From Rubrobacter calidifluminis (lineage in GTDB: Bacteria; Actinomycetota; Rubrobacteria; Rubrobacterales; Rubrobacteraceae): a DNA stretch of 64,000 nt. Shown piece after piece: positions 11,835 to 60,557 of this stretch. The notes beneath the pieces were generated by a model. The model had not been told where the DNA came from, ran no database searches, and was given only the letters and a program-made list of their open reading frames with translations. The DNA lies in the NCBI RefSeq assembly GCF_028617075.1, contig NZ_JAQKGV010000005.1:124001-188000 (forward strand), in the 5' to 3' direction. Position 1 is the first letter of the stretch; every line of letters begins with the position of its first letter. Made by a program: the position numbers and the translations under genes.

Positions 11835-13925
11835 TCAGCCGGGGTCCGATAGCAGGATCGCCTGGCTGTCCAGCAGTTCCTCTCCTTCCCCCGGGCGCAG
11901 GCGCTTGAAGGTTCCATCGGGCCTCATCTCCCAGGCGTTCGCCGTATCGGAGAGCTGGAGGTCCAGGATGCGCCTGACGCGCCTGCGGTGCCGCTCCTCC
12001 CTGAGCGGGAAGACCTGCTCGACGCGCCGGTCGAGGTTGCGTTGCATCATATCCGCGCTGCCGAGCAGCAGCTTCTCGTCCTCCCCCTCGCCGAAGGCGA
12101 AGACCCGGGCGTGCTCCAGGAAGCGCCCGACTATGGAAACCACCCGGATGTTCTCGCTCACACCCTCTATCCCCGGCCGCAGGCAGCAGATGCCACGTAC
12201 GATGAGATCGACCCTCACCCCGGCCTGCGAAGCCCGGTAGAGGGCCTCGATGATCTGCGGGTCGGTGAGCGAGTTCATCTTCCAGGTGATGCGGGCCGCT
12301 CCGCCGCCCCTGGCGCGTTCGATCTGCTCCTCCACAAGCCGCATCATCCCTTCCCGCAGCGTCAGCGGGGCCACGAGCAGGGTGTTGTACTCCCGCTGCG
12401 AGGAGTATCCGGTGAGGTAGTTGAAGAGATCCGAGGCGTCCTCGCAGAGCCCGGGATCGTCGGTGAAGTAGGAGAAGTCGGTGTAGACCCTGGCGGTCGA
12501 GGGGTTGTAGTTGCCGGTACCGAGGTGAACGTAGCGCCTGAGACCCTGTCCCTCCCTCCTGACCACCAGACATACCTTCGCGTGAGTCTTCAGACCCACA
12601 AGCCCGTAGGCCACGTGGACCCCCCGGGCCTCGAGCTGGCGGGCCCAGGTTATGTTGGGCTCCTCGTCGAAGCGAGCCTTGAGCTCCACCAGCACGGCGA
12701 CCTGCGTCTGCTCGTCGCGCGCGCTCTCGAGCGCCTCCACTATAGGCGAGTTCGCTCCCACCCGGTAGAGGGTCTGCTTTATCGCGAGCACGTTCGGGTC
12801 CTCGGCCGCGGCCCGGACGAACTCCACGACCGGGGCGAAAGAGTCGTAAGGATGGTAGAGCAGGATGTCCCCCTGGCGGATCGCCGAGGTGATGGAGCTG
12901 GCGCTGCGGATCGCGTCGGGCACCCGGGGAGCTATGGGCGGGTAGAGCAGATCCGCGCGTTCGAGGTGTACGAGCTTGTCAAAATCTCCCAGACCTATCG
13001 GCTCCGGGACCGCGTACACCGACTGGCGGTCTATCCTCAGGTTGATCGCAAGCCATTCCCTGAGCTCCTCTGGCATCTCCTCGGTCACGACCAGCCGCAC
13101 GCTCTGGCCGAACCAGCGTCCTTCAAGCTCGTCCTCTATGGCCTGCAGGAGGTCCGCGGCCTCGTCCTCCTCGATCACGAAATCCGCGTTGCGCGTCACC
13201 TGGAAGACGTAACTGGCAGCCACCTTCTTGCCGGGGAAAAGCTCCTCCAGGTTCGCCGCTATGACCTCCTCTACACGCACGAGCCGGATCTCGGGTCTCC
13301 TGCCGTTCTGGACCAACTCCTCCCCGGAGAGCCGCATGAAGCGGTCTATCGTCGTGGGCACCTTCAGCCGGGCCATCACCCGTCGCCCTTCATCCTCGAT
13401 CACGACCAGCAGATTAAGCGAGAGGTTGGAGATGTGCGGGAAAGGATGTGCTGGATCTATCGCGAGCGGTGTCAGGACCGGGAAGATGTCCCTGACGAAC
13501 CTCTCCTTGAGCTCCTGCTTCTCGGCCTTGCGCAGCCTGGCGTAGGGAACGAGGTTTATCCCCTCCCTGCGCAGCGCCGGCAGGAGCACCCTCTCGAGCA
13601 CCTCCCGCTGCTCGGCCATGAAACTCCTGGTGTGCTCATGGATGCGTGCGAGCTGCTCCTCCGGAGTCATGCCGTCCGGCACCGGGTTGGGCAGTTCCGC
13701 AGCGACCTGCTGCTGCAGCCCCGAGACCCGGATCATGAAAAACTCGTCGAGATTCGTCGCAGAGATCGCCACGAAGCGCACCCGCTCCAGGAGCGGATGC
13801 CGTTCGTCCCACGCCTGCGCCAGCACCCGCTCGTTGAAAGAGAGCCAGGAGAGCTCCCGGTTGACGTAAAGCGAAGGGTCGGAGAGGTTAACCTTCCGCT
13901 CTTCTCCACCCATCGTCCCGGTCAA
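11835..13925 (-). CDS. ppk1: Polyphosphate kinase 1
   Basis: A 696-residue Ppk1, the ATP-dependent synthase of inorganic polyphosphate. The N-domain reads YVNRELSWLSFNERVLAQA, the head domain ATNLDEFFMIRVSGLQQQV, and the catalytic core has HPYDSF, GLKTHAKVCLVVRRE (the autophosphorylated His lies in this H-K motif) and HLGTGNYNPSTA. A second phospholipase-D-like half follows (SADMMQRNLDRRVE). The TTG at 13925 is preferred because it overlaps the ppx stop (TTGA) and has GGAGGTGA upstream; an ATG four codons later is the alternative. Order ppx-ppk-CHAD-sixA on one strand indicates a polyphosphate operon. Confidence 0.95.
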   Translation of the reverse strand: MTGTMGGEERKVNLSDPSLYVNRELSWLSFNERVLAQAWDERHPLLERVRFVAISATNLDEFFMIRVSGLQQQVAAELPNPVPDGMTPEEQLARIHEHTRSFMAEQREVLERVLLPALRREGINLVPYARLRKAEKQELKERFVRDIFPVLTPLAIDPAHPFPHISNLSLNLLVVIEDEGRRVMARLKVPTTIDRFMRLSGEELVQNGRRPEIRLVRVEEVIAANLEELFPGKKVAASYVFQVTRNADFVIEEDEAADLLQAIEDELEGRWFGQSVRLVVTEEMPEELREWLAINLRIDRQSVYAVPEPIGLGDFDKLVHLERADLLYPPIAPRVPDAIRSASSITSAIRQGDILLYHPYDSFAPVVEFVRAAAEDPNVLAIKQTLYRVGANSPIVEALESARDEQTQVAVLVELKARFDEEPNITWARQLEARGVHVAYGLVGLKTHAKVCLVVRREGQGLRRYVHLGTGNYNPSTARVYTDFSYFTDDPGLCEDASDLFNYLTGYSSQREYNTLLVAPLTLREGMMRLVEEQIERARGGGAARITWKMNSLTDPQIIEALYRASQAGVRVDLIVRGICCLRPGIEGVSENIRVVSIVGRFLEHARVFAFGEGEDEKLLLGSADMMQRNLDRRVEQVFPLREERHRRRVRRILDLQLSDTANAWEMRPDGTFKRLRPGEGEELLDSQAILLSDPG

Positions 13926-49411: not shown

Positions 49412-50071
49412 TCAGGACCCGGGCTGCCTCACCAGCACCGCGTGCACCTCCCCGGGACCGTGCACGCCGACGGTGAGCGTCATCTCGATGTCCCCGGAGC
49501 GGCTGGGGCCGGTGTGGAAACAGAGGTCGGGGGGCATCCGCCCCCCTTCGTACTCCCCGAGAGCCTCCTCCAGCGTGCCGAGCAGCCTCTCCTCCGGCAC
49601 GAGCACCACGTGCACCGGCGGAAGGAGCGTGGCGAGCCTCCCCCCGCCGCTCTCGAGCAGCAGGCTCCCGGTCTCGGCGAGCGCCCACCTCGCCTCGGTC
49701 ACTCCTGCGTCCGCCTCCTCCAGGGACCTCCGTTCTGCACCGCCCCGGTAGACGGCCACCTCCAGCCCGGCCTCTTCGAGGCCCAGCCCTTCCAGAAACT
49801 TCCCATCCCACCGCACGACCCGCCGCGCACCTCTCCCCCGCAGCACCTCGAGCACGTAATCACGCGCCTCCTCGATGCCGGATGCACGCACCGCGTGCCC
49901 GCCGACCGCTTCGAACTCCCGGACGAAGCGCTCCGCCGGGTCTTCATGCCCCTCTTTTCTTCCCCCGTCCGCGCGTGGTGTCCAGGCCACGTCCGGAGCG
50001 CGGGTCGGATGGTAGCGCCCGGCGCGGGTGCGGTGCCGTATCCCTTCTAGGAATTCTTCCCTCCTCGCCAC
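49412..50071 (-). CDS. lutC: Lactate utilization protein C (LUD domain)
   Basis: A 219-residue LUD-domain protein. The GTG at 50071 is chosen because GGAGG lies about five bases upstream; it overlaps the lutB stop by 25 bases. Conserved parts include the central GVTEARWALAETGSLLLESGGGRLATLLP and HVVLVPEERLLGTL, then LCFHTGPSRSGDIEMTLTVGVHGPG. LutC acts with LutA and LutB in oxidation of L-lactate to pyruvate without a flavin lactate dehydrogenase; no Fe-S motif is in this subunit. Confidence 0.9.
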   Translation of the reverse strand: MARREEFLEGIRHRTRAGRYHPTRAPDVAWTPRADGGRKEGHEDPAERFVREFEAVGGHAVRASGIEEARDYVLEVLRGRGARRVVRWDGKFLEGLGLEEAGLEVAVYRGGAERRSLEEADAGVTEARWALAETGSLLLESGGGRLATLLPPVHVVLVPEERLLGTLEEALGEYEGGRMPPDLCFHTGPSRSGDIEMTLTVGVHGPGEVHAVLVRQPGS

Positions 50072-51519
50072 CAGATCCTCCCCTCCCGCCAGAGCTCGCG
50101 GAAGCTCTTCTCCGCCAGGTGCGGGATCTCGCGGGACTCCGCCCATCCCTTCAAGGGCCCGGGGAGGGACCGGGCGACCCCGTCCCTGAGCAGCGGCCCC
50201 TGCACGCCCCGCGCGGCTTTCGCCCCGATCCCGTAGAGTCCGGGACGCCTCATCCCGAATTCGAACGCGTCGAAGGCGAGGCGCTGCGCTCTGCCGGAGA
50301 TTCCCGTTTCGGCCTGCCTGCGGCGCAGCCTGAGCAAAAGCTCGTGCAGCGGGATGCCGACCGGGCACGCCTCCCAGCACGCCCCGCACAGGCTGGAGGC
50401 GTGCGGGAGGTCCTTCGCCTCCTCGTCCCCCTTGAGAAGTGGTGTTATCACCGCCCCGATGGGCCCGGAGTAGGTCGAGCCGTAGGCGTGGCCCCCGGTC
50501 TGACGGTAGACCGGGCAGACGTTGAGGCACGCCCCGCAGCGGATGCAGTAGAGCGCCTCCTCGAACTCCCCACCGAGGAGGCTGGAGCGGCCGTTGTCGA
50601 GCAGCACCAGGTGGAACTCCTCCGGCCCGTCGGGCTCGTCCTCACCCTTCGGCCCGCTCACGAAGTCGGTGTAGACGGTCATCTTCTGGCCCGTGGCGCT
50701 GCGGGCGAGGAGCCTGAGGAAGACCGCGAGATCCTCGAGGCGCGGCACGACCTTCTCTATGCCCATCACCGCCACGTGCACCGACGGGACGCTCGCGACC
50801 AGCCCCTCGTTGCCCTCGTTGGTCGCGGTGACGACGGTCCCGGTCTCGGCGACGCCGAAGTTGGCCCCGGTTATCCCGATGTCCGCCGAGAGGAATTTCT
50901 GCCGCAGCCGCTCGCGGGCGAAGTACACGAGATCCTCCACGTTGGGCGGCAGGGGGTGGCCCGCCTCCTCCGAGAGGACCTCGGCGGCCCGGTGGCGGCT
51001 CATGTGCAGGATCGGGGCGACGATGTGCGAGGGCGGCTCGCCGGCGAGCTGCGCGATCCACTCCCCCAGGTCCGTCTCGACGATCTCGAGCCCGAGCTCG
51101 GGATACTCCTCCTGGAGGCGGCGGTTGAGCTCTATCTCCTCGGTGGCCATGCTCTTGGATTTGGTGATGAGTTTCGCGCCGCGGCGCCTCGCCAGTTCCC
51201 CGATATACCGGACGGCCTCCTCCCCGTCGTTCGCGAAGAAGACCTTCCCGCCCCTCTTCTCGACGGCGGAGGCCATCCGTTCCAGATGGCGGTCGAGGTT
51301 GGCCATCGTCTCCTGTTTGATACGGTAGGCGCGCTCCCTCAGCTCGGGTGCGTCCGGCAGGGCGGAGAGGGCAGCGTTGCGGTTTCGGATCGTGTTCTTC
51401 GAGTGCACCGCCACCGCCGAGCGCAGCCGCTCGTCCTTCACGGCCACCCTCGCCCGCTCGTTGAAGCCCTCGACCCGGCTCTCGAGCCCCTCCCCCGGGC
51501 GTCCCGCCTTCGCCGCCAT
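50047..51519 (-). CDS. lutB: Lactate utilization protein B (4Fe-4S, LUD)
   Basis: A 490-residue iron-sulfur LUD protein. Two cluster motifs are visible: CIRCGACLNVCPVYR (about residues 324-338) and CGACWEACPVGIPL (about 383-396). The LUD fold precedes them (FADAWITGANFGVAETGT-type segment, here ADIGITGANFGVAETGTVV). Start ATG at 51519, two bases after lutA. It is the electron-transfer and catalytic subunit of the LutABC lactate oxidation complex. Confidence 0.95.
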   Translation of the reverse strand: MAAKAGRPGEGLESRVEGFNERARVAVKDERLRSAVAVHSKNTIRNRNAALSALPDAPELRERAYRIKQETMANLDRHLERMASAVEKRGGKVFFANDGEEAVRYIGELARRRGAKLITKSKSMATEEIELNRRLQEEYPELGLEIVETDLGEWIAQLAGEPPSHIVAPILHMSRHRAAEVLSEEAGHPLPPNVEDLVYFARERLRQKFLSADIGITGANFGVAETGTVVTATNEGNEGLVASVPSVHVAVMGIEKVVPRLEDLAVFLRLLARSATGQKMTVYTDFVSGPKGEDEPDGPEEFHLVLLDNGRSSLLGGEFEEALYCIRCGACLNVCPVYRQTGGHAYGSTYSGPIGAVITPLLKGDEEAKDLPHASSLCGACWEACPVGIPLHELLLRLRRRQAETGISGRAQRLAFDAFEFGMRRPGLYGIGAKAARGVQGPLLRDGVARSLPGPLKGWAESREIPHLAEKSFRELWREGRIWWRGGKNS

Positions 51520-51521
51520 CC

Positions 51522-52259
51522 TCAGACCTCTCCCCGCCCCGGGTCCAGAACCTGCGCCAGGTGCAGCACCCGTGTGTCGTGCCCGGTGCGCCGCAGCCGC
51601 CCCTCCAGGTGCAACAGGCAGCTCGGATCGCAGGAGATCAAAGTATCCGCCCCGCTCTTCTCCAGAGCCCGGATCTTCTGGTCCGCCATCGCCGCGGAGA
51701 CCTCGGGCATCTTCACCGAGAACGTCCCCCCGAACCCGCAGCAGAGCTCCTCGTCCTCCCAGTCGAGCAGTTCGAGCCCGGAGACGCCGCGCAGTATCCG
51801 CCGCGGCTCTTCCAGCACCCCGAGCTCGCGCCGCTGGTGGCAGCCGGCGTGGAAGACGGCCCTACCGGAGTACGAGGCTCCCGGATCCTCCATCCCAATC
51901 ACGTTGGCCAGGAAGTCCGAGAACTCCCTGACCCTGCCGCCCAGGGCCTCCGCGCGCCCTCGCTCCTCCGGCGTCTCCTCGAAGAGGAGCGGGTAGTAGC
52001 GCGAGACCATCGTCGAGCACGACCCGGACGGGCATACGACGTAGTCGAAGTCCTCCCGCTCGAAGACGTCGAGGAAGCGCCGGGCCACGCCGCGCGCCTC
52101 GTCGAAGAATCCCGAGTTGAACGCCGGCTGCCCGCAGCAGGTCTGACCCTCCGGATAGACGACCTCGACTCCCAGGCTGCGCAGGACGCGCACGGTAGCG
52201 ACCCCGACCTCCGGCCGGATGAGATCCACGAAGCACGGCACAAAGAGCGCCACCCTCAA
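51522..52259 (-). CDS. lutA: Lactate utilization protein A (CCG-motif Fe-S)
   Basis: A 245-residue protein with two CCG cluster-binding repeats (QTCCGQPAFNSGF and HAGCHQRRELG ... ELCCGFGGTFSVK). It begins VALFVPCFVDLIRP and ends with CDPSCLLHLEGRLRRTGHD, as in the LutA family. First gene of lutABC. A TAGAAT -10 box lies about 40 bases upstream on the minus strand. Lactate permease at 6.9 kb could supply the substrate. Confidence 0.93.
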   Translation of the reverse strand: MRVALFVPCFVDLIRPEVGVATVRVLRSLGVEVVYPEGQTCCGQPAFNSGFFDEARGVARRFLDVFEREDFDYVVCPSGSCSTMVSRYYPLLFEETPEERGRAEALGGRVREFSDFLANVIGMEDPGASYSGRAVFHAGCHQRRELGVLEEPRRILRGVSGLELLDWEDEELCCGFGGTFSVKMPEVSAAMADQKIRALEKSGADTLISCDPSCLLHLEGRLRRTGHDTRVLHLAQVLDPGRGEV

Positions 52260-52440
52260 CGAAAGGCACCCCCGATCACACGCTTTCCTTCGGAGATCAT
52301 TCTACCGCGGTGGGCTTCGCGGAAGGCACCCTCAGGGCTTCCAGAGTCCCGCCCGGTGCCCCCGCGATCCGAGACCGCTGGAAACACGCCATGCAACCGG
52401 GAGATAATGCGGGAGAAACGACGTCAGGGGGTAAGATCCG

Positions 52441-52506
52441 ATGTCGAAGAAGCTGGCGGCCGAAAACCCGCCGGACGCCGGCAAGGGGTGGGGTGGATCG
52501 CGTTGA
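52441..52506 (+). CDS. 21-codon upstream ORF overlapping the histidine kinase start
   Basis: MSKKLAAENPPDAGKGWGGSR is preceded by AGGGGGT and ends in a TGA that overlaps the kinase TTG start (TTGA). The arrangement would couple kinase translation to translation of this leader. It could equally be the original N-terminus of the kinase separated by a frameshift. No attenuator codon bias is apparent. Confidence 0.35.
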   Translation: MSKKLAAENPPDAGKGWGGSR

Positions 52507-54086
52507 TCTCGGGAACGCACCTCAAAAACAAGGCGTCTCTGTACACGCTCCTGGTCGTTTCGTCGTGGTGCATCGCGGCCTTCGGGTTCGCCGCGCTGGC
52601 GAAAGACACCCCGGCGCGCGCCCTGACGACCCATCTCTGCTACTGGTCGACCGCCACGTTCGCCTTCGGCAGCGCGGTGTGGGCCGCGCGGCAGAACGGA
52701 GGCAGGGAGAGAAGATTCTGGGCGCTGTTCGCAGCCGGTCTTCTCACCAGCTTCTGCGGATACCTGCTGTGGCAGATGGGTCCGGACGGCGCAAGGCTCG
52801 CGCTCCCGAGGGATCTCTCGTACACCCTCTCCTACCTGCTCCTCTTCGTGGCGCTCCTCTACCTGCTCGGGCTCTACACCCGGGGCATAGCCCCTCTGGC
52901 CCCGCTCGACGCCCTGAGCGTGATGTTCTCGTCGGGCATGGTGGTATGGTACTTCTTGCTCGCTCCGGCAGCGCCGGTCCACGGGAAGAGCCCCGGGGAG
53001 ATCGCAGACACCCTCTCGGGGCCGGCGATAGACGCCGGGTTGCTCTTCCTCTGCCTCACGCTGCTCTCGAGCCGCAGCAAACCAGGCTTTTCGGGCTGGC
53101 TCGCGGGGGGATTTCTGGCCCTGGTGGCCGGAGACCTCGCCTGGGCCGGGCTCGAACCCTTCAAACCCTACGAGCCCGGCAGGTGGCCGGAGCTGCTGTG
53201 GACCCTGGGGCTGGTGCTGTTCCTCGCGGCGGCTCTGAGAGCATCCTCGGAGCCCCAAGACAGCCAGAGAACGGGGATCAGCCCCTGGCGGGTGTTCCTG
53301 TTCTGGGCGGGACCGCTCTCCCCGGCCGTGCAGTACGCCTTTTTGCTCGCCTGGGCGACGCTGCACCCGCCGGTGCCGGCGTACGTGAGCTGGACGGGGG
53401 TGGGGCTCATGCTCTACCTCGCGCTGCGCATCTCCGCCCTCTCCTACATAAACCGCTCCCTCAGGCTCGAAGCCGAGAGAGACGCCGTACGTCGGGAGCA
53501 GAGAAGGATCTCGAGCGAGCTGCACGACTCGCTCAAACAGAACGTCTACGGGGCGACGCTCCTGCTGGAGACCTGCAGAAAAGCGAGGGACCAACGAACC
53601 TCCAAGAGGCTCCTCGAAGAGGCGCTCTCCGCCTGCAGAGAGTCCGGACACCTGCTCGAAAGCTCCATCGAGGAGCTGCACGCCCGCTGCGAAAACTCCG
53701 GGGTGGAACTCGACGCCCTCCTGCAGAGGACGCTGCGGGACATAAGCAGCCACTTCGGAGTCCACACCCACCAGGACCTGCGCGCGGATTGCGGCACGCT
53801 GGACACCACCCGGCGCGCCGCCGCCTACAGGATAGCCGCTGAAGCGCTCTGGAACGCGGCGAAGCATTCCAGGGCCTCCAACGTCTGGCTGGAGTCCAGG
53901 AAAGTCGGCCGGGTGCTGCTGCTCCGGGTGCGCGACGACGGGAGGGGCTTCGATCCCACCTCTCCAACCCCGGGAGTCGGGCTCTCGCTCATGAGGAACC
54001 GGGCGGAGGAGGCGGGAGGCACCCTGGACATCTTCTCCTCCCCGAACAGGGGCACCACCGTACAGGTGAGGTTCGAGCTTGGATGA
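52503..54086 (+). CDS. NarL-family membrane sensor histidine kinase
   Basis: A 527-residue sensor with about eight membrane helices in the first 300 residues and no soluble sensor domain, which points to sensing within the membrane. The HisKA_3 segment is REQRRISSELHDSLKQNVYG (His at about residue 344), followed by the N box AAEALWNAAKHSRASNV, G1 RDDGRGFDPTS and G2 GVGLSLMRNRAEEAGG. The TTG start at 52503 overlaps a 21-codon upstream ORF. The stop overlaps the response regulator ATG by four bases (ATGA), so the pair is one operon. Confidence 0.85.
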   Translation: MISGTHLKNKASLYTLLVVSSWCIAAFGFAALAKDTPARALTTHLCYWSTATFAFGSAVWAARQNGGRERRFWALFAAGLLTSFCGYLLWQMGPDGARLALPRDLSYTLSYLLLFVALLYLLGLYTRGIAPLAPLDALSVMFSSGMVVWYFLLAPAAPVHGKSPGEIADTLSGPAIDAGLLFLCLTLLSSRSKPGFSGWLAGGFLALVAGDLAWAGLEPFKPYEPGRWPELLWTLGLVLFLAAALRASSEPQDSQRTGISPWRVFLFWAGPLSPAVQYAFLLAWATLHPPVPAYVSWTGVGLMLYLALRISALSYINRSLRLEAERDAVRREQRRISSELHDSLKQNVYGATLLLETCRKARDQRTSKRLLEEALSACRESGHLLESSIEELHARCENSGVELDALLQRTLRDISSHFGVHTHQDLRADCGTLDTTRRAAAYRIAAEALWNAAKHSRASNVWLESRKVGRVLLLRVRDDGRGFDPTSPTPGVGLSLMRNRAEEAGGTLDIFSSPNRGTTVQVRFELG

Positions 54087-54691
54087 GGGTGCTCCTCGTC
54101 GAAGACCACCCCACCATGAGGCTGGGCATCCGGGCAGCCCTCGGTCTCGCCGACGATGTAGAGGTAATCGCAGAAGCCATAGGCGCCGGGGATGCCCTCC
54201 ATCTCAACCAAAAGCTCAAACCCGACGTCGTGCTGCTCGACCTGCACCTCGGAGGGGAGCCCAGAGGCGCTGAGATCTGCCGCAGGATTAAAGAACTTCC
54301 AGACCCACCCCGCATCCTCGTATACTCCGCCTACAACTTAGAAGAAGACATCCTCCTTTGCAGGCTCTCCGGTGCCGACGGCTATCTGCACAAGAGCGAG
54401 GGACCGGAGAAGCTCCTCGAAGCCTTGAGGGAGGTCCACCGCGGCGGAAGGTTGTGGCTGGAGGGAAGGGAGGAGGGCCATCCCGGCCTGCAGGATGTCC
54501 CGGGCATCACCCATCTGACGCCCAAAGAGAAGGAAGTTCTCCTCCTCTTGCTGGAGCGCTGCTCCAACGCCCAGATCGCGGAGCAGCTCTACATCTCCGA
54601 GCGTACGGCCAAGTTTCACGTGAAGAACATCCTCAAGAAGCTCGGCTTCTCCTCGCGCAGGGAGCTCTTCCGGCACCTCACCGGCAGTTAG
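54083..54691 (+). CDS. NarL/LuxR-family response regulator
   Basis: A 202-residue regulator: receiver domain (VLLVEDHPTMRLGIRAAL, phospho-acceptor in DVVLLDLHLGGEPRGAEI) and a C-terminal LuxR-type helix-turn-helix (LTPKEKEVLLLLLERCSNAQ, IAEQLYISERTAKFHVKNIL). It is immediately upstream of two GGACAG/CTGTCC inverted repeats at 54704-54757, which lie in front of the cysteine-rich gene. NarL-type regulators bind inverted heptamer pairs, so these are plausible targets. Confidence 0.92.
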   Translation: MRVLLVEDHPTMRLGIRAALGLADDVEVIAEAIGAGDALHLNQKLKPDVVLLDLHLGGEPRGAEICRRIKELPDPPRILVYSAYNLEEDILLCRLSGADGYLHKSEGPEKLLEALREVHRGGRLWLEGREEGHPGLQDVPGITHLTPKEKEVLLLLLERCSNAQIAEQLYISERTAKFHVKNILKKLGFSSRRELFRHLTGS

Positions 54692-54703
54692 GCGCTCGCA
54701 AAA

Positions 54704-54723
54704 GGACAGGTCGCAACCTGTCC
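54704..54723. promoter_or_regulatory. Inverted-repeat operator 1 (GGACAGGT-cgca-ACCTGTCC)
   Basis: Perfect 8-bp arms with a four-base centre, 13 bases after the response regulator stop. Its half-site GGACAG also recurs in operator 2, so this is probably one of two sites for the same regulator. Confidence 0.55.
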
Positions 54724-54738
54724 CCCGATCGTCGAAAA

Positions 54739-54757
54739 ACTGTCCCGAAAGGACAGT
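54739..54757. promoter_or_regulatory. Inverted-repeat operator 2 (ACTGTCC-cgaaa-GGACAGT)
   Basis: Perfect 7-bp arms with a five-base centre. Its right edge meets the expected -35 position of the TAGGCT -10 box at 54779-54784, a class-II activator geometry. The centre-to-centre distance to operator 1 is about 35 bases. Confidence 0.55.
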
Positions 54758-54778
54758 GTGCCGGCGATGGGCAGCTGG

Positions 54779-54784
54779 TAGGCT
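54779..54784 (+). promoter_or_regulatory. -10 element TAGGCT of the cysteine-rich gene
   Basis: TAGGCT lies about 40 bases before the GTG at 54826 and AGGAGGAGGG (54811-54820) is a strong ribosome site in the leader. No good -35 is present, as expected for an activator-dependent promoter. Confidence 0.35.
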
Positions 54785-54825
54785 GACGCCGGCGCACCGG
54801 AAAGATCGGCAGGAGGAGGGCCAGG

Positions 54826-55923
54826 GTGAAAACTCTCGAGCGACACCTGATCCTGGGCTTCGACGCCGGGTGTATGACGTGCAGCGACCTGGCGCATAGC
54901 ATCGAGGAGGCAGCAGGGGGCAGGCTCGAGGTCAGAAGCCTCCACGACCCGCAGGTCGAGCACTGGCGCAAGCAGGCCCTCGGAGAGAACGCTCCGTGGG
55001 CTCCGACCTTAATCGAGGTCAGGGGCGGACAGGTCAAAGCCTGGACCGGGCTGAGGATGGGGTTGGTCTTGAGCAGAAAGCTCGGTCCTGTCACAACGTG
55101 GCGGGTAATGCAGGTTTTGAGCGAAGTCAGAGGACCCAAAAGTGCTGCTGAGAGGATAAACCGTAGACAGTTTATCAAAGGTGTGGGCGGTGCTACCGTT
55201 GCGATGTCAGTACTGTCAGGTACCAATTTGTTCTCTGCTTCTGCAGAAGCAGAGGAGCACTGGGTTTCTGAACTCTCCTTTGCTTCATCCAAGGAGCTCT
55301 CTCATAGACAGGCCATATCGGCCTGGAATCAGCTATCTCGAGAAAAATACTTGCAACACTTGTTAAACGTCCAGGCAGTAAGGGAAAATCCGAGTGCGAG
55401 TCGTTTAAGTGAGAAGCTAGGATCTAGTGCTGAAGGTAAACATACCCCATACTTGTCTACCGGCACTGTTCAGGGGGTTCGCCATGAGCTGGTCGGGGGC
55501 GGTTCTTTGTTAGCCCTTTCCTATCTTTTAGGCGATGCACTTATAGTTTCTTATCAGCTCAGCAGAAAAGGCAAAAGATACAAACAATCCTCCAAGGTAA
55601 TCGTAAGAGTAAGCGAAGAGTACGCCTGGATTCTGGCCTCGGCAGAGGATGACAATATTGCTCAGGCTCCCATAGTTGGAGCGGAACCTAATGTTTCTAC
55701 GCAGTCAAGCAGATGCCGGAACAGTAGATGTCCCTCTTGTTATAGATGCGAATGTGTAAGCTTGAGTCTTAGATGCGCTTTTAATTGCTGTGCACCTTGT
55801 GGTCTCTCTTGCTCGAACCCATGGACTTGCTTAGGCTGTGTGGGAGTATACTGTCCCGTATGTCTGAGCGTAAATAAATGTTGCACCAAGCGCGGATGCG
55901 CATATGTGTGCGTTGGGCCATGA
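54826..55923 (+). CDS. Chimeric thioredoxin-like / Tat-signal / cysteine-rich bacteriocin-like precursor
   Basis: A 365-residue protein in three parts. Residues 1-93 are a thioredoxin-like domain with CMTC (GFDAGCMTCSDLAHSIEE), and use high-GC codons like the neighbours. From about residue 105 the DNA is visibly AT-richer. A twin-arginine signal follows (INRRQFIKGVGGATVAMSV, Arg-Arg at about 113-114), with an AxA-type site in SASAEA. Then about 150 residues of unassigned sequence, and the final 69 residues contain 18 cysteines (CRNSRCPSC ... CCTKRGC). That order, Tat signal then central domain then cysteine-rich tail, resembles halocin C8 precursors. An in-frame ATG at 55108 would put the Tat signal at the N-terminus and give a 271-residue precursor. 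Confidence 0.7.
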   Translation: MKTLERHLILGFDAGCMTCSDLAHSIEEAAGGRLEVRSLHDPQVEHWRKQALGENAPWAPTLIEVRGGQVKAWTGLRMGLVLSRKLGPVTTWRVMQVLSEVRGPKSAAERINRRQFIKGVGGATVAMSVLSGTNLFSASAEAEEHWVSELSFASSKELSHRQAISAWNQLSREKYLQHLLNVQAVRENPSASRLSEKLGSSAEGKHTPYLSTGTVQGVRHELVGGGSLLALSYLLGDALIVSYQLSRKGKRYKQSSKVIVRVSEEYAWILASAEDDNIAQAPIVGAEPNVSTQSSRCRNSRCPSCYRCECVSLSLRCAFNCCAPCGLSCSNPWTCLGCVGVYCPVCLSVNKCCTKRGCAYVCVGP

Positions 55924-55979
55924 TGACTGGCATAAGCGAGGTATACTAAACCAATCGGCAGAAAGGTGGCGAAGGATCG

Positions 55980-56414
55980 TTGAGCGACCAAAGTGAACCG
56001 CAAGGCTCGCCGTCCGGTTTGCCTCGTTTGGGGATGACCATCTGGGGGATTCTCGCATTAGCCATTACAATGGGTTTGGTGGCGCTGGCGTGGAACAGTA
56101 CCGGGGCTGCTACAGGCCTCGTGCAGATGAGGATCTTTCTGGTGGGCTGGGCCGTGGCCGCCGTGATGACCGTCGCGGTAAGGCTCTTGTCCGGTACGAT
56201 CTCCCGGAGGGATGGTCGTGGGTCTGGCTCGTTGACGGCCATGGAGCTCTCATACCACCTGGTCGTGGGGTGCGCGGTGGGGCTGGCCATCGGCACGACA
56301 GACTGGAGCAACCTGCAGATCGTCGGGTGGTGGCAGCTATGGTGGACGGTTCCGCTCGTTTTGGGCTACCTGGGCAATCTGGCGGCTCTCCGGAGACGGA
56401 GGCAGGGACGATAA
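55980..56414 (+). CDS. Four-helix membrane protein, candidate immunity or accessory protein
   Basis: A 144-residue protein starting at TTG 55980 with AAAGGTGG and GAAGGA upstream. Four hydrophobic helices are predicted (about residues 20-40, 48-70, 86-104 and 118-136) with a short basic C-terminus (RRRRQGR). No domain is recognised. It follows the cysteine-rich gene by 56 bases and precedes the ABC transporter, so it could confer self-protection or aid export; this is inference from position alone. A TATACT -10-like box is at 55942-55947. Confidence 0.65.
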   Translation: MSDQSEPQGSPSGLPRLGMTIWGILALAITMGLVALAWNSTGAATGLVQMRIFLVGWAVAAVMTVAVRLLSGTISRRDGRGSGSLTAMELSYHLVVGCAVGLAIGTTDWSNLQIVGWWQLWWTVPLVLGYLGNLAALRRRRQGR

Positions 56415-56454
56415 GATGGACTCCGGACGGTAAGCCGAGCCGGATGGCACTCGC

Positions 56455-57216
<762 letters not shown>

Positions 57217-57221
57217 GCCCG

Positions 57222-58835
57222 GTGGGCACGTGGAGGCTGCTCTACAGGCTCAAGATGAAGACGCTCTTCAGGTTCTCCTCCGACGAGAGGGGCAACCAGC
57301 GGATGGCCGGCTACGTCCTCGTTGTGATCGGGCTGCCCCTGATCTTCCTGCTGATGATCGGCTCGTTCTTCACGCTCTTCAGGAGCCTGCAGGGTTCGGT
57401 CGCCGGCCGCCACGAGTCCTTCGTGCTGCTCGCGAGCACCTTCGGCGGTGTGGGCGCGTTCGCGCTCTTCGCGGGATTCGGGCGCTCGGTGCAGGTGCTC
57501 TACCTCTCACGGGATCTGACGCCGCTGCTCGCGATGCCCTTCAAATCCCGGACGGTCTTCGCGCTCAAGTTCTGGGAGAGCGCACTCGGTGGCTCACTGC
57601 TCGTGGGTGTACTCGGGCTCCCGATCCCGCTGGCCTACGGGCTGGCGACCGGGGCCTCCATCCTCTTCTATCCCGTCCTTCTCCTCGTGCTCGCGCTGCT
57701 CGCGGTCGTTGCAAACGCCATCGGGATGCTCTTGGTGATGCCGTTCATGAGGCTGGTCTCCCCGGGCAGGGCCCGGGAGATCCTCTACGCCACAGGAATA
57801 ATCCTCGGGGTGGCCGTGCTCCTCGGCGTGTTGTTCTTCGGCGACCATCCGGGGCAGAAGATGCTCGACTTTCCGCTCCTCACGATCCCGCCCGGAAGCT
57901 GGGCCGCCGCGGCCGTCACCGGGGCGGCCTCCCTGAGTGCCACCACCCTTCTCGGAGGTCTGGTACCGCTCGCCGCCGCGACGGCCGCGCTGTACTTCCT
58001 CTGCCTGTTCGTCGCCGGTCACCACTACGCCTCGGGGGTCTCCCGCGCCGCCGAATTCGCGGCCGGAGCTCGCCGGCGTCGGAGAAGGGCCATAGAAGGG
58101 AGGAGTGAGCTTCCCCTTCTTCCGCGAGACGTAGGGGCGGTGGTGAAGAAGGACCTGCTCTCGCTGCGTCGGGATCTCAGGATCTCCGCGAGCCTCCTGA
58201 TCCCGCCGGCGTTCGGGCTCTTCTACGCCCTGACGAACGATTTCCAGAAAACAGGAATCCTCGGCCTCGCACCGTATCTCCTGGCCGCGACCCTCTCCGG
58301 AGCCAGCACGGGACTCTGGGGGAACCAGATACAGAACGTGGGCTTCGAAGGACGAGCCTACGCTCTCATCCTCTCCTCTCCCATACCGGCGAAGAGGTTT
58401 CTGTTCGGCAAGTGGGTGAGCGGCGCTCTGGTCGGCTCGCTGCTCGCCGCGGTGACGGAGCTGGCGCTCTGGCTACTCTCCGGTCCAGGACGACCGGGGT
58501 TCGCGGCCGTAGGCCTGATCTTCGGGATCGCCTCGGCGGTCGTCTTTTCATGCTACGCCACGGGCGTCGGGGCGCTCTATCCCCGCTTCGACTGGGAGAA
58601 CCCCCAGCAATCACTCACCGGGATGGGAAGGGTGGCGCTGGGCGGAGGGGTCTTCGGGTTGCTCGTGCTCGGAGCACTCTGTCTCGCAGCCGGCTACCTG
58701 CTCTCGCTCACGATACCCCCACCGGCCGCCTGGTGCGCGGCCGCCCTGCTGTGGGTTGCGGTCACCTGCACCGTCGCGTACGTCGTCTTCAGATCCGGAA
58801 CGCGGCATCTGCAGGAGATCGAGTGGCGGCTATAA
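57222..58835 (+). CDS. ABC-2 type transporter permease
   Basis: A 537-residue protein with about 12 hydrophobic helices, starting at GTG 57222 with GGAGGAG eight bases upstream and eight bases after the ATPase stop. Helices such as MAGYVLVVIGLPLIFLLMIG and AVVANAIGMLLVMPFM and a late VVFSCYATGVGALYPRFDWEN are typical of the large ABC-2 permeases that pair with this ATPase class. The substrate is unknown; export of the cysteine-rich product or drug resistance are both possible. Its stop overlaps the convergent nadE stop by six bases. Confidence 0.85.
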   Translation: MGTWRLLYRLKMKTLFRFSSDERGNQRMAGYVLVVIGLPLIFLLMIGSFFTLFRSLQGSVAGRHESFVLLASTFGGVGAFALFAGFGRSVQVLYLSRDLTPLLAMPFKSRTVFALKFWESALGGSLLVGVLGLPIPLAYGLATGASILFYPVLLLVLALLAVVANAIGMLLVMPFMRLVSPGRAREILYATGIILGVAVLLGVLFFGDHPGQKMLDFPLLTIPPGSWAAAAVTGAASLSATTLLGGLVPLAAATAALYFLCLFVAGHHYASGVSRAAEFAAGARRRRRRAIEGRSELPLLPRDVGAVVKKDLLSLRRDLRISASLLIPPAFGLFYALTNDFQKTGILGLAPYLLAATLSGASTGLWGNQIQNVGFEGRAYALILSSPIPAKRFLFGKWVSGALVGSLLAAVTELALWLLSGPGRPGFAAVGLIFGIASAVVFSCYATGVGALYPRFDWENPQQSLTGMGRVALGGGVFGLLVLGALCLAAGYLLSLTIPPPAAWCAAALLWVAVTCTVAYVVFRSGTRHLQEIEWRL

Positions 58836-60557
58836 CTTCGGGCGGCGCTCGCGGTAGCGGTTCGTGATCGGCATCCTGCGATCGCGTCCGAAGGCCCGGC
58901 TCGTCACCTTTATGCCGATGGGAGCCTGGCGGCGCTTGTACTCTGCGGCGTCGACCATCCGGACCACCCGGCGCACGTCCTCCTCGTCGTAGCCTTCGGC
59001 CACTATCTCGCCCACCCCCTTGTCCTCCTCGATGTACGCCTCGAGGATCGGGTCGAGAACCTCGTAGGGTGGCAGTGAGTCGGTGTCCTTCTGGCCCTCG
59101 CGCAGCTCGGCGGAGGGTTCTTTGGTCAGGACGGACTTCGGGATCACCTCACGACCCTCGGTCTCGTTGATGTGGCGGCAGATGCGGTAGACGAGCGTCT
59201 TGGGAACGTCCTTGATGACCGCGAAGCCGCCGGCCGAGTCGCCGTAGAGGGTGGAGTATCCGACGCTCATCTCGCTCTTGTTGCCGGTGGAAAGAAGGAT
59301 CCAGCCGAACTTGTTCGAGAGCGCCATGAGGACGTTGCCCCGGATGCGCGACTGCAGGTTCTCCTCGGTTACATCCTCGGGTAGCCCCCGGAAGGCGTCG
59401 GCGAGCATCTCCCCGTACGCGGAGAAGGCGGGCTCTATCGGGATCTCGAGCACTTCTATGCCGAGGTTCTTGGCAAGCGCGAGCGCGTCGGTGTTGCTCC
59501 CTTGGGAGGTGTAACGGCTCGGCAGCAGCACACCGGTCACGTTCTCCGGTCCCAGGGCGCGGGCCGCGATGGCCGCCGAGAGCGAGGAGTCCACCCCGCC
59601 GGAGAGCCCGAGGACGGCCCGCGAGAAACCGTTCTTCTGGAAGTAGTCCCTGAGGCCCAGCGTCAGCGCCTCCAAAACCTCGCCCTCCTCGGGCAACAGC
59701 TCCTCGACGCGGGGCTCGATTCCCTCCTGCGGTTTTTTCTGTATGAGGCTTGGCCCCTCGACGACGACCGGCGATCCACCCGGGTTCTCCTTGCGCGGAC
59801 GTGGGTCGTGGAGGCGGTGGATCAGGGCCTCCTCCGGGTGGATGTCCAGCACGAGCAGGTCCTCCTCGAACTGCCGGGCGCGGGCCAGAAGCCGCCCCTG
59901 CGGGTCTATGGCCACCGAGTGGCCGTCGAAGACGAGCTCGTCCTGACCACCGACCAGGTTGCAGAAGAAGACGTAGCAGCCGTAGTCAGAGGCCCTGACG
60001 GCGAGCATCCGCTCCCGGAAGAGCCCCTTGCGCCGCGAGTAGGGCGAGGCGGAGATGTTGATGAGGACGCTGGCCCCCGCGAGCGCCTGCTCACGAGCCG
60101 GCCCCCCCGGGTACCAGATGTCCTCGCAGACGTTCACGCCGGCCAGCGATCCGTCCACGCTGAGGACCGGGACGCCCTCGCCCTCCCGGAAGTAGCGGTT
60201 CTCGTCGAAGACCCCGTAGTTTGGCAGGTAGTGCTTGTGGTAGCGGTGGAGGACCTCACCGCCGGAGACTAGGGCGCAGGAGTTGTAGAGGTCTCCGGCG
60301 AGATCGACGAAACCCACGGCCGCGATCACGCCCTCGGGCACCCGTCCGGCAAACTCTTCGAGCCCTTCCAGGTTGGCCCGGATGAAGTCCGGACGCAGGA
60401 GCAGATCTTCGGGGGGATACCCGGTGATCGTCAGCTCGGGGAAGGCGACGAGGTCGGCTCCATCCTCCAACGCACGTTCCAGGGCGGACGCCGCCTTCTC
60501 GACGTTGCCCCAAACGTCGCCTACCGTGGTGTTGATCTGGGCGAGAGCGACCCTCAT
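58830..60557 (-). CDS. nadE: Glutamine-dependent NAD+ synthetase
   Basis: A 575-residue two-domain enzyme. The N-terminal nitrilase-like glutaminase has Glu in VAFPELTITGYPPEDLL, Lys in HYHKHYLPNYGVFDENRYF and the nucleophile Cys in GVNVCEDIWYPGG. The C-terminal synthetase has the ATP P-loop LGLSGGVDSSLSAAIAARA and NKSEMSVGYSTLYGD. Both halves are complete. The ATG at 60557 follows TATCAT (60571-60566) by eight bases. Confidence 0.95.
   Translation of the reverse strand: MRVALAQINTTVGDVWGNVEKAASALERALEDGADLVAFPELTITGYPPEDLLLRPDFIRANLEGLEEFAGRVPEGVIAAVGFVDLAGDLYNSCALVSGGEVLHRYHKHYLPNYGVFDENRYFREGEGVPVLSVDGSLAGVNVCEDIWYPGGPAREQALAGASVLINISASPYSRRKGLFRERMLAVRASDYGCYVFFCNLVGGQDELVFDGHSVAIDPQGRLLARARQFEEDLLVLDIHPEEALIHRLHDPRPRKENPGGSPVVVEGPSLIQKKPQEGIEPRVEELLPEEGEVLEALTLGLRDYFQKNGFSRAVLGLSGGVDSSLSAAIAARALGPENVTGVLLPSRYTSQGSNTDALALAKNLGIEVLEIPIEPAFSAYGEMLADAFRGLPEDVTEENLQSRIRGNVLMALSNKFGWILLSTGNKSEMSVGYSTLYGDSAGGFAVIKDVPKTLVYRICRHINETEGREVIPKSVLTKEPSAELREGQKDTDSLPPYEVLDPILEAYIEEDKGVGEIVAEGYDEEDVRRVVRMVDAAEYKRRQAPIGIKVTSRAFGRDRRMPITNRYRERRPKL

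Follow-up and report, generated by a model that had tools for sequence, protein, structure and literature searches.

A gene of Rubrobacter calidifluminis encodes a 365-residue precursor in which a constant leader of thioredoxin fold precedes a twin-arginine signal segment, a middle region and a tail with 18 cysteines, and in which everything behind the leader belongs to an exchangeable cassette. The gene lies in the window analysed here, a stretch of 64,000 nucleotides of contig NZ_JAQKGV010000005.1. We consider the precursor probably bacteriocin-type and part of a polymorphic toxin-immunity locus. The initial annotation, made from the DNA letters and their open reading frames, had proposed a CxxC domain, a Tat signal and an 18-cysteine tail; the reading frame proved real with all three parts present, and a search for the three-part fusion in related genomes found the same order in about 30 genes. 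A bacteriocin role is also the best reading of the locus, given that the leader also carries fulvocin-C-related cargo, that circular bacteriocins are encoded next to such loci and that candidate immunity genes are present. The features are as follows.

52578..54086, + strand: sensor histidine kinase with HisKA_3 and HATPase_c; start uncertain; homologue linked at other family loci
54083..54691, + strand: LuxR-type response regulator (profile match)
54704..54756, + strand: two inverted repeats, GGACAGGT-N4-ACCTGTCC and CTGTCC-N5-GGACAG
54826..55923, + strand: precursor gene, 365 aa, GTG start, AGGAGG-type ribosome site, with homologues
54826..55115, + strand: constant leader, residues 1 to ~97, a DCC1/thioredoxin-fold domain with FDAGCMTC
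55116..56002, + strand: swapped cassette, GC 0.48, unrelated to the sequence that sister genome G001 has here
55159..55251, + strand: twin-arginine signal segment, residues 112-142 (motif match, family alignment)
55252..55710, + strand: middle (pro-)region, alpha helix and beta meander, common to cargo types A, B, C and I
55711..55920, + strand: type A cysteine-rich tail, 18 Cys (Cys count, conservation in relatives)
55980..56414, + strand: small multi-transmembrane (TM) protein of 144 aa, candidate immunity protein for type A; starts at TTG or at a later ATG
56455..57216, + strand: ABC transporter ATPase (profile match)
57048..58835, + strand: ABC permease, PF16949; start uncertain, probably ~57250

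Leader, signal segment and tail

The leader is a thioredoxin fold with a DxxCxxC motif and is DCC1/thioredoxin-like. Its AlphaFold model (pLDDT 83.6) has the order beta-alpha-beta-alpha-beta-beta-alpha. Matches to PDB folds were weak (best E 6e-3), yet nearly all were thioredoxins, protein disulfide isomerases and glutathione transferases, among them 1zma, a bacteriocin transport accessory protein. Against true DCC1-like (PF04134) proteins the leader profile reached 80% in hhalign (E 1.4e-5) over the CxxC region, with unrelated controls at most 3%. These results bear out the thioredoxin-like front domain with CMTC that had been proposed at first. The leader shares the DxxCxxC motif and the fold with DCC1-like thiol-disulfide oxidoreductases, but it is fused ahead of a signal peptide and remains sub-threshold in Pfam, where the PF04134 gathering cut-off is 27.8 bits and all tested family members score below it (best 19.4 and 15.5). 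A fold search with the whole precursor model returned the thioredoxin matches of the leader and none besides; phmmer against PDB with the whole precursor gave only chance matches to ribosomal proteins.

The two leader cysteines, C16 and C19, are invariant across the family members aligned, and this bears on an earlier suggestion that the domain serves as a redox helper for the cysteines of the tail. They are equally invariant where the cargo has few cysteines or none (the M23 type and types G and H, with 0-3 Cys near the cargo C-terminus in L011, L016, L017, L021 and L022), which disfavours a role solely in cargo disulfides. A wider version, in which the leader is an active oxidoreductase or isomerase that mainly forms cargo disulfides in the cytosol before Tat export, would be compatible with a bacteriocin-type precursor. 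The invariant CxxC, the thioredoxin fold and the ability of the Tat route to carry folded proteins argue for it, but the same persistence of the motif before cysteine-poor cargo leaves it a possible, rather doubtful account.

Behind the leader, the motif N112-R113-R114-Q-F-I-K passes NCBIfam TIGR01409 at 17.6 bits (cut-off 16.7) and falls just under the cut-off of Pfam PF10518, so that the proposed Tat signal held up in the HMM check; NRRQFIK also accords with the S/T-R-R-x-F-L-K pattern of Tat-substrate signals, and TatC is encoded in the host genome. The precursor would be exported by Tat, with signal peptidase cleaving after A140 or A142 and the leader left inside. In the family alignment a true RR occurs in only about 4 of 31 members, the second arginine being mostly G or A (SRGQFLK); since most relatives carry RG or RA where our precursor has RR, the route of the family as a whole may be relaxed Tat or Sec.

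The precursor has 20 cysteines: C16 and C19 of the CMTC motif and 18 others within residues 297-365, and at least 18 of 20 falling in a fixed 69-residue window has p about 1e-11 under random scatter. The tail is dense in cysteine, contains several CxxC pairs, and keeps its cysteines in homologues from another genus of Rubrobacteraceae and from Arthrobacter, where the conserved blocks include an NCCAPC core and W.C.GC..V.CP.C...N.CC. Neither middle nor tail was matched in Pfam, NCBIfam or PADLOC, and the plasmid search returned no match to the type A middle-tail. The structure model of the tail fell below pLDDT 40 and was not used.

Exchange of the cassette behind the leader

Comparison with the sister genome G001 locates the exchange. 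The flanks, 9 kb in total, are near-identical (50002-55115 at 98.6% and 56003-60000 at 98.8%), whereas 55116-56002, spanning signal, middle and tail, has no counterpart; in its place G001 has 1378 bp of unrelated sequence, within which lie one short ORF bearing a signal and another that is alpha/beta-hydrolase-like. Composition breaks at the same place: the precursor ORF is a mosaic, host-like at GC 0.64 over residues 1 to ~97 and 0.48 in the remainder, its low-GC part being the lowest-GC 700 bases in the whole 64 kb. The maximum-likelihood change point falls at 55105 (0.64 to 0.48, 2lnL 21.8, while 500 codon shuffles gave at most 12.5) and agrees with the alignment break within ~10 bases. Judged from this alignment and from base composition, the 3' half of the precursor gene is exchanged at the leader/signal junction, because the flanks are near-identical, the segment between them is unrelated and GC drops at nearly the same point. 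Since both breaks mark the point where the thioredoxin domain ends, the signal peptide is exchanged together with the cargo. In G001, the alpha/beta-hydrolase-like ORF (L031:8364-9194) is out of frame with the short leader ORF and may be a decayed fusion.

Exchange is seen in other genomes too. Among the four paralogues of G009, identity is 74-96% in residues 1-100 and drops to 22-30% in the remainder. A second site lies between an SDR gene on its upstream side and a pair of opposite-strand genes on its downstream side; it is occupied by type B cargo in G021, by type C in G035 and G031, and by type G in G025. Two orphan B-type TM genes persist in G025 besides its type G cargo and look like leftovers of a displaced B cassette. 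By eye, an IS701-like transposase (L034:10217-11452) lies between two of the G009 paralogues. In G002, the third genome of the genus, the assembly of contig C120 ends 12 bases into the precursor gene; leader copies that are almost identical may interrupt assemblies and conceal cargo.

The comparison shows which parts stay and which change: the putative operator, the ribosome site and the leader are kept, whereas the Tat signal, the pro-region, the cargo and usually the candidate TM immunity gene are replaced.

Cargo types and their partner genes

Matches occurred in 17 of 99 relatives searched, nearly all of the same family (Rubrobacteraceae), and the leader was present in 16 of 396 sampled genomes across the phylum, 15 of them in Rubrobacteraceae. 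Further members came from Arthrobacter, Kibdelosporangium, Actinocatenispora, Nocardiopsis, Fodinicola, Virgisporangium and Prauserella in a scan covering 84,980 species, and from Streptomyces and Rubrobacter radiotolerans in a plasmid search. Across the family, residues ~1-97 and the signal segment are conserved and the sequence behind them is divergent, forming at least seven cargo groups without mutual similarity detectable by blastp or hhalign. The groups are listed here.

Types A, B, C and I: one superfamily with a common middle and different Cys tails (blastp groups)
Type E: L007, L010, L014, L028 (blastp group)
Type G: L011, L015 (blastp group)
Type H: L021, L022 (blastp group)
M23 peptidase: L016, L017 (PF01551, E 1.1e-10)
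Fulvocin-C-related: L030, L063, L064, L066-L068 (NF033852, E 1.7e-26 for the Streptomyces gene)
L018/L026 (blastp group)

Types A, B, C and I form one group in hhalign, at 83-99% where significant; between the remaining groups hhalign gave nothing convincing beyond this superfamily and a weak link of type E to halocin. Some individual loci have features of their own. The RefSeq/PGAP start of the Streptomyces fulvocin-related gene (L030:5977-6954) is 6250, which omits the conserved leader lying in frame upstream. A tyrosine-recombinase-like gene, identified by eye, follows the Arthrobacter type A gene (L062:7691-11283) and suggests that this locus is on a mobile element. In two genomes an S8 subtilase and a bacterial Ig-like protein adjoin type I cargo (L029:5537-7965 and L043:10387-12965), the subtilase being a candidate processing protease.

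Each of the 18 Rubrobacteraceae genes with cargo of type A, B, C, E, G, H or I has a small multi-TM ORF that begins within 250 bases downstream; no such gene follows directly in the M23 type, L026, the Arthrobacter type A gene, Nocardiopsis or the six fulvocin-type genes. These TM genes resemble each other within a cargo type (z 38-56 for A, 42 for B, 16-43 for C and 11-17 for E) and reach z at most 6.9 between types, although the rank test is only indicative, as the pairs are not independent. Homology covers three of four TM genes of type C and three of four of type E, with C_G035 and E_G005 as outliers; the two type I genes have no match to each other, and divergence is too great for a verdict on the G and I pairs. 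Homologues of the 55980-56414 protein immediately follow type A cargo in G010 and G011 (z 38-56). Since the type A cargo-TM pairs sit in three different neighbourhoods, the two genes of a pair move as a unit. Orphans occur among the TM genes of types A, B, E and H; those of type A are in G001 and on contig C9 of G000. The lone type A TM gene that G001 keeps without type A cargo fits an orphan immunity gene and fits a general component also. In G009, a leaderless, interrupted type C cargo lies between type C partner genes (L034:6416-7761). The TM genes are probably immunity genes, mostly specific for their cargo type. The middle region had been read at first as the immunity part; it is common to types with different Cys tails, and the downstream membrane protein is the better candidate.

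Upstream, the inverted-repeat pair at 54704-54756 is almost unique in G000, stands directly 3' of the histidine kinase-response regulator pair, and is likely a response-regulator operator. The paralogues have a kinase-regulator pair as well as an operator in common. In G009, GTATGAGAAAAATTCATACCGAAATTCATAC occurs five times, ahead of all four copies and of a decayed leader remnant beside a circular bacteriocin operon, and nowhere else in the genome; two occurrences in G000 and one in G001, of this sequence or a close variant, are likewise confined to loci of this kind, and a backward control gave zero. A circular bacteriocin gene (PF09221, E 3.9e-12), whose operon also contains a SpoIIM/DUF95 gene, adjoins paralogous leader loci in G000, G001 and G009.

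Known systems and competing explanations

The cassette structure resembles that of polymorphic toxin-immunity systems (CDI, Rhs and T7SS toxins), which likewise join a constant N-terminal trafficking part to exchanged C-terminal cargo; an immunity gene stands alongside, and both cargo and immunity genes occur as orphans. From the gene comparisons, the present family shows features by which such systems are recognised, namely a constant N-terminus with exchanged cargo, and orphan cargo together with putative orphan immunity genes. It differs in having a DCC/thioredoxin leader before an internal Tat-type signal, and in cargo that consists mostly of small Cys-rich peptides partnered by membrane proteins. 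The portion of the survey PMC3482391 considered here mentions neither Tat, thioredoxin nor Rubrobacter, and in the literature we found no paper that joins a DCC-type domain with bacteriocins and none that describes the leader.

Halocin C8-like precursors (TIGR04449) were the likeness named originally. They share the order of twin-arginine signal, middle of ~150-190 aa and C-terminal Cys-rich peptide, and a short gene directly downstream, and to this extent the comparison stood. They differ in lacking an N-terminal thioredoxin-fold domain and in carrying the signal N-terminally, where ours is at residue 113 behind a folded domain; our tail has 18 cysteines in another spacing. The tail likeness did not stand: the TIGR04449 halocin_C8_dom gave no match at E<=10 to the middle-tail of our precursor or of its Arthrobacter and G010 homologues, whereas haloarchaeal proteins matched at 5e-12 and 9e-13, and the 396 genomes sampled across the phylum contain no match to the model. 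A weak likeness to halocin C8 is limited to sister cargo type E (hhalign 34-57%, E 8e-5 to 4e-4); the middle of types A-C reached 1-8% against haloarchaeal precursors. Homology of this middle with halocin C8 is not claimed, the pooled alignment giving 18% at best. Halocin C8 is a fair architectural analogue. For fulvocin C-related proteins (NF033852), the shared leader and signal precede such cargo in Streptomyces, Kibdelosporangium, Prauserella and others, and our own middle and tail have no match to the model.

From the bacteriocin-family sister cargo and neighbours we infer that the cargo is toxic to neighbouring cells, and the sequence of events would run as follows. Operator sharing is seen directly, and the linked kinase and regulator probably control the locus. 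The cytosolic leader may help folding or targeting after translation; the signal would export the pro-region and Cys-rich tail, with signal peptidase removing leader and signal. A protease could then free the disulfide-rich tail, which would act on the membrane of competing bacteria, and the 144-aa membrane protein (55980-56414) would protect the producer, perhaps assisted by the ABC transporter. Killing, export, cleavage and any redox role are presumed steps. Against this reading stand a tail that matches no library family, members that lack a TM gene, the unrelated TM genes within types C, E and I, the type A TM gene that G001 has without its cargo, the scarcity of true RR and the want of a family member with known activity. 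A broader proposal, which we advance tentatively and with less confidence than the bacteriocin role itself, is a new polymorphic antibacterial class in actinobacteria: its fixed part would be, rather than a secretion-apparatus domain, a leader of thioredoxin fold that stays in the cytosol, acts as a folding chaperone and anchors the recombination by which Tat-exported, disulfide-rich bacteriocins are interchanged along with their membrane immunity proteins.

The leader might instead be a general export or folding module and the tail a signal that is secreted or a peptide of the envelope, to which the linked histidine kinase might respond. M23 peptidase and Cys-poor proteins among the cargo and the linked kinase-regulator pair would suit such a module, but membrane partners that are type-specific or orphaned, and fixed sites at which cargo is exchanged, typify toxin-immunity systems, and sister cargo and neighbours belong to bacteriocin families; we think it unlikely. 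M23 enzymes can be bacteriolysins as well. That the 18-Cys tail is an exported metal-binding or structural protein seems more improbable still: its cysteine density, its CxxC pairs and the lack of a toxin-family match would fit, but cassette exchange, partner genes and locus company do not, nor do the few cysteines of other tails at the same locus. An assembly chimera or two separately translated genes, which the sharp GC break within the ORF, the end of the G002 contig at the precursor gene and the PGAP start behind the Streptomyces leader might suggest, is almost certainly wrong here and refuted for the family by in-frame leader-cargo fusions in about 30 genes, with the leader-signal-type A order open in frame in Arthrobacter too.

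If the bacteriocin-type reading is true, cassette-swapping toxin-immunity logic extends to small Tat-exported disulfide-rich bacteriocins, and the leader with its downstream TM gene becomes a sequence handle for actinobacterial antimicrobial peptides and immunity genes that homology searches miss. It also raises the question why a thioredoxin-fold domain precedes an internal signal peptide whatever the cargo chemistry.

The circularin A/uberolysin-type circular bacteriocins (PF09221) beside the paralogous loci are unrelated to the precursor in leader, peptide and maturation. They include amylocyclicin-like class IId peptides at L032:~12590-12840 (contig C9 of G000), L033:12503-12754 and L035:1166-1513, accompanied by ABC, SpoIIM/DUF95 and a 620-aa membrane protein, and lie next to paralogous leader genes.
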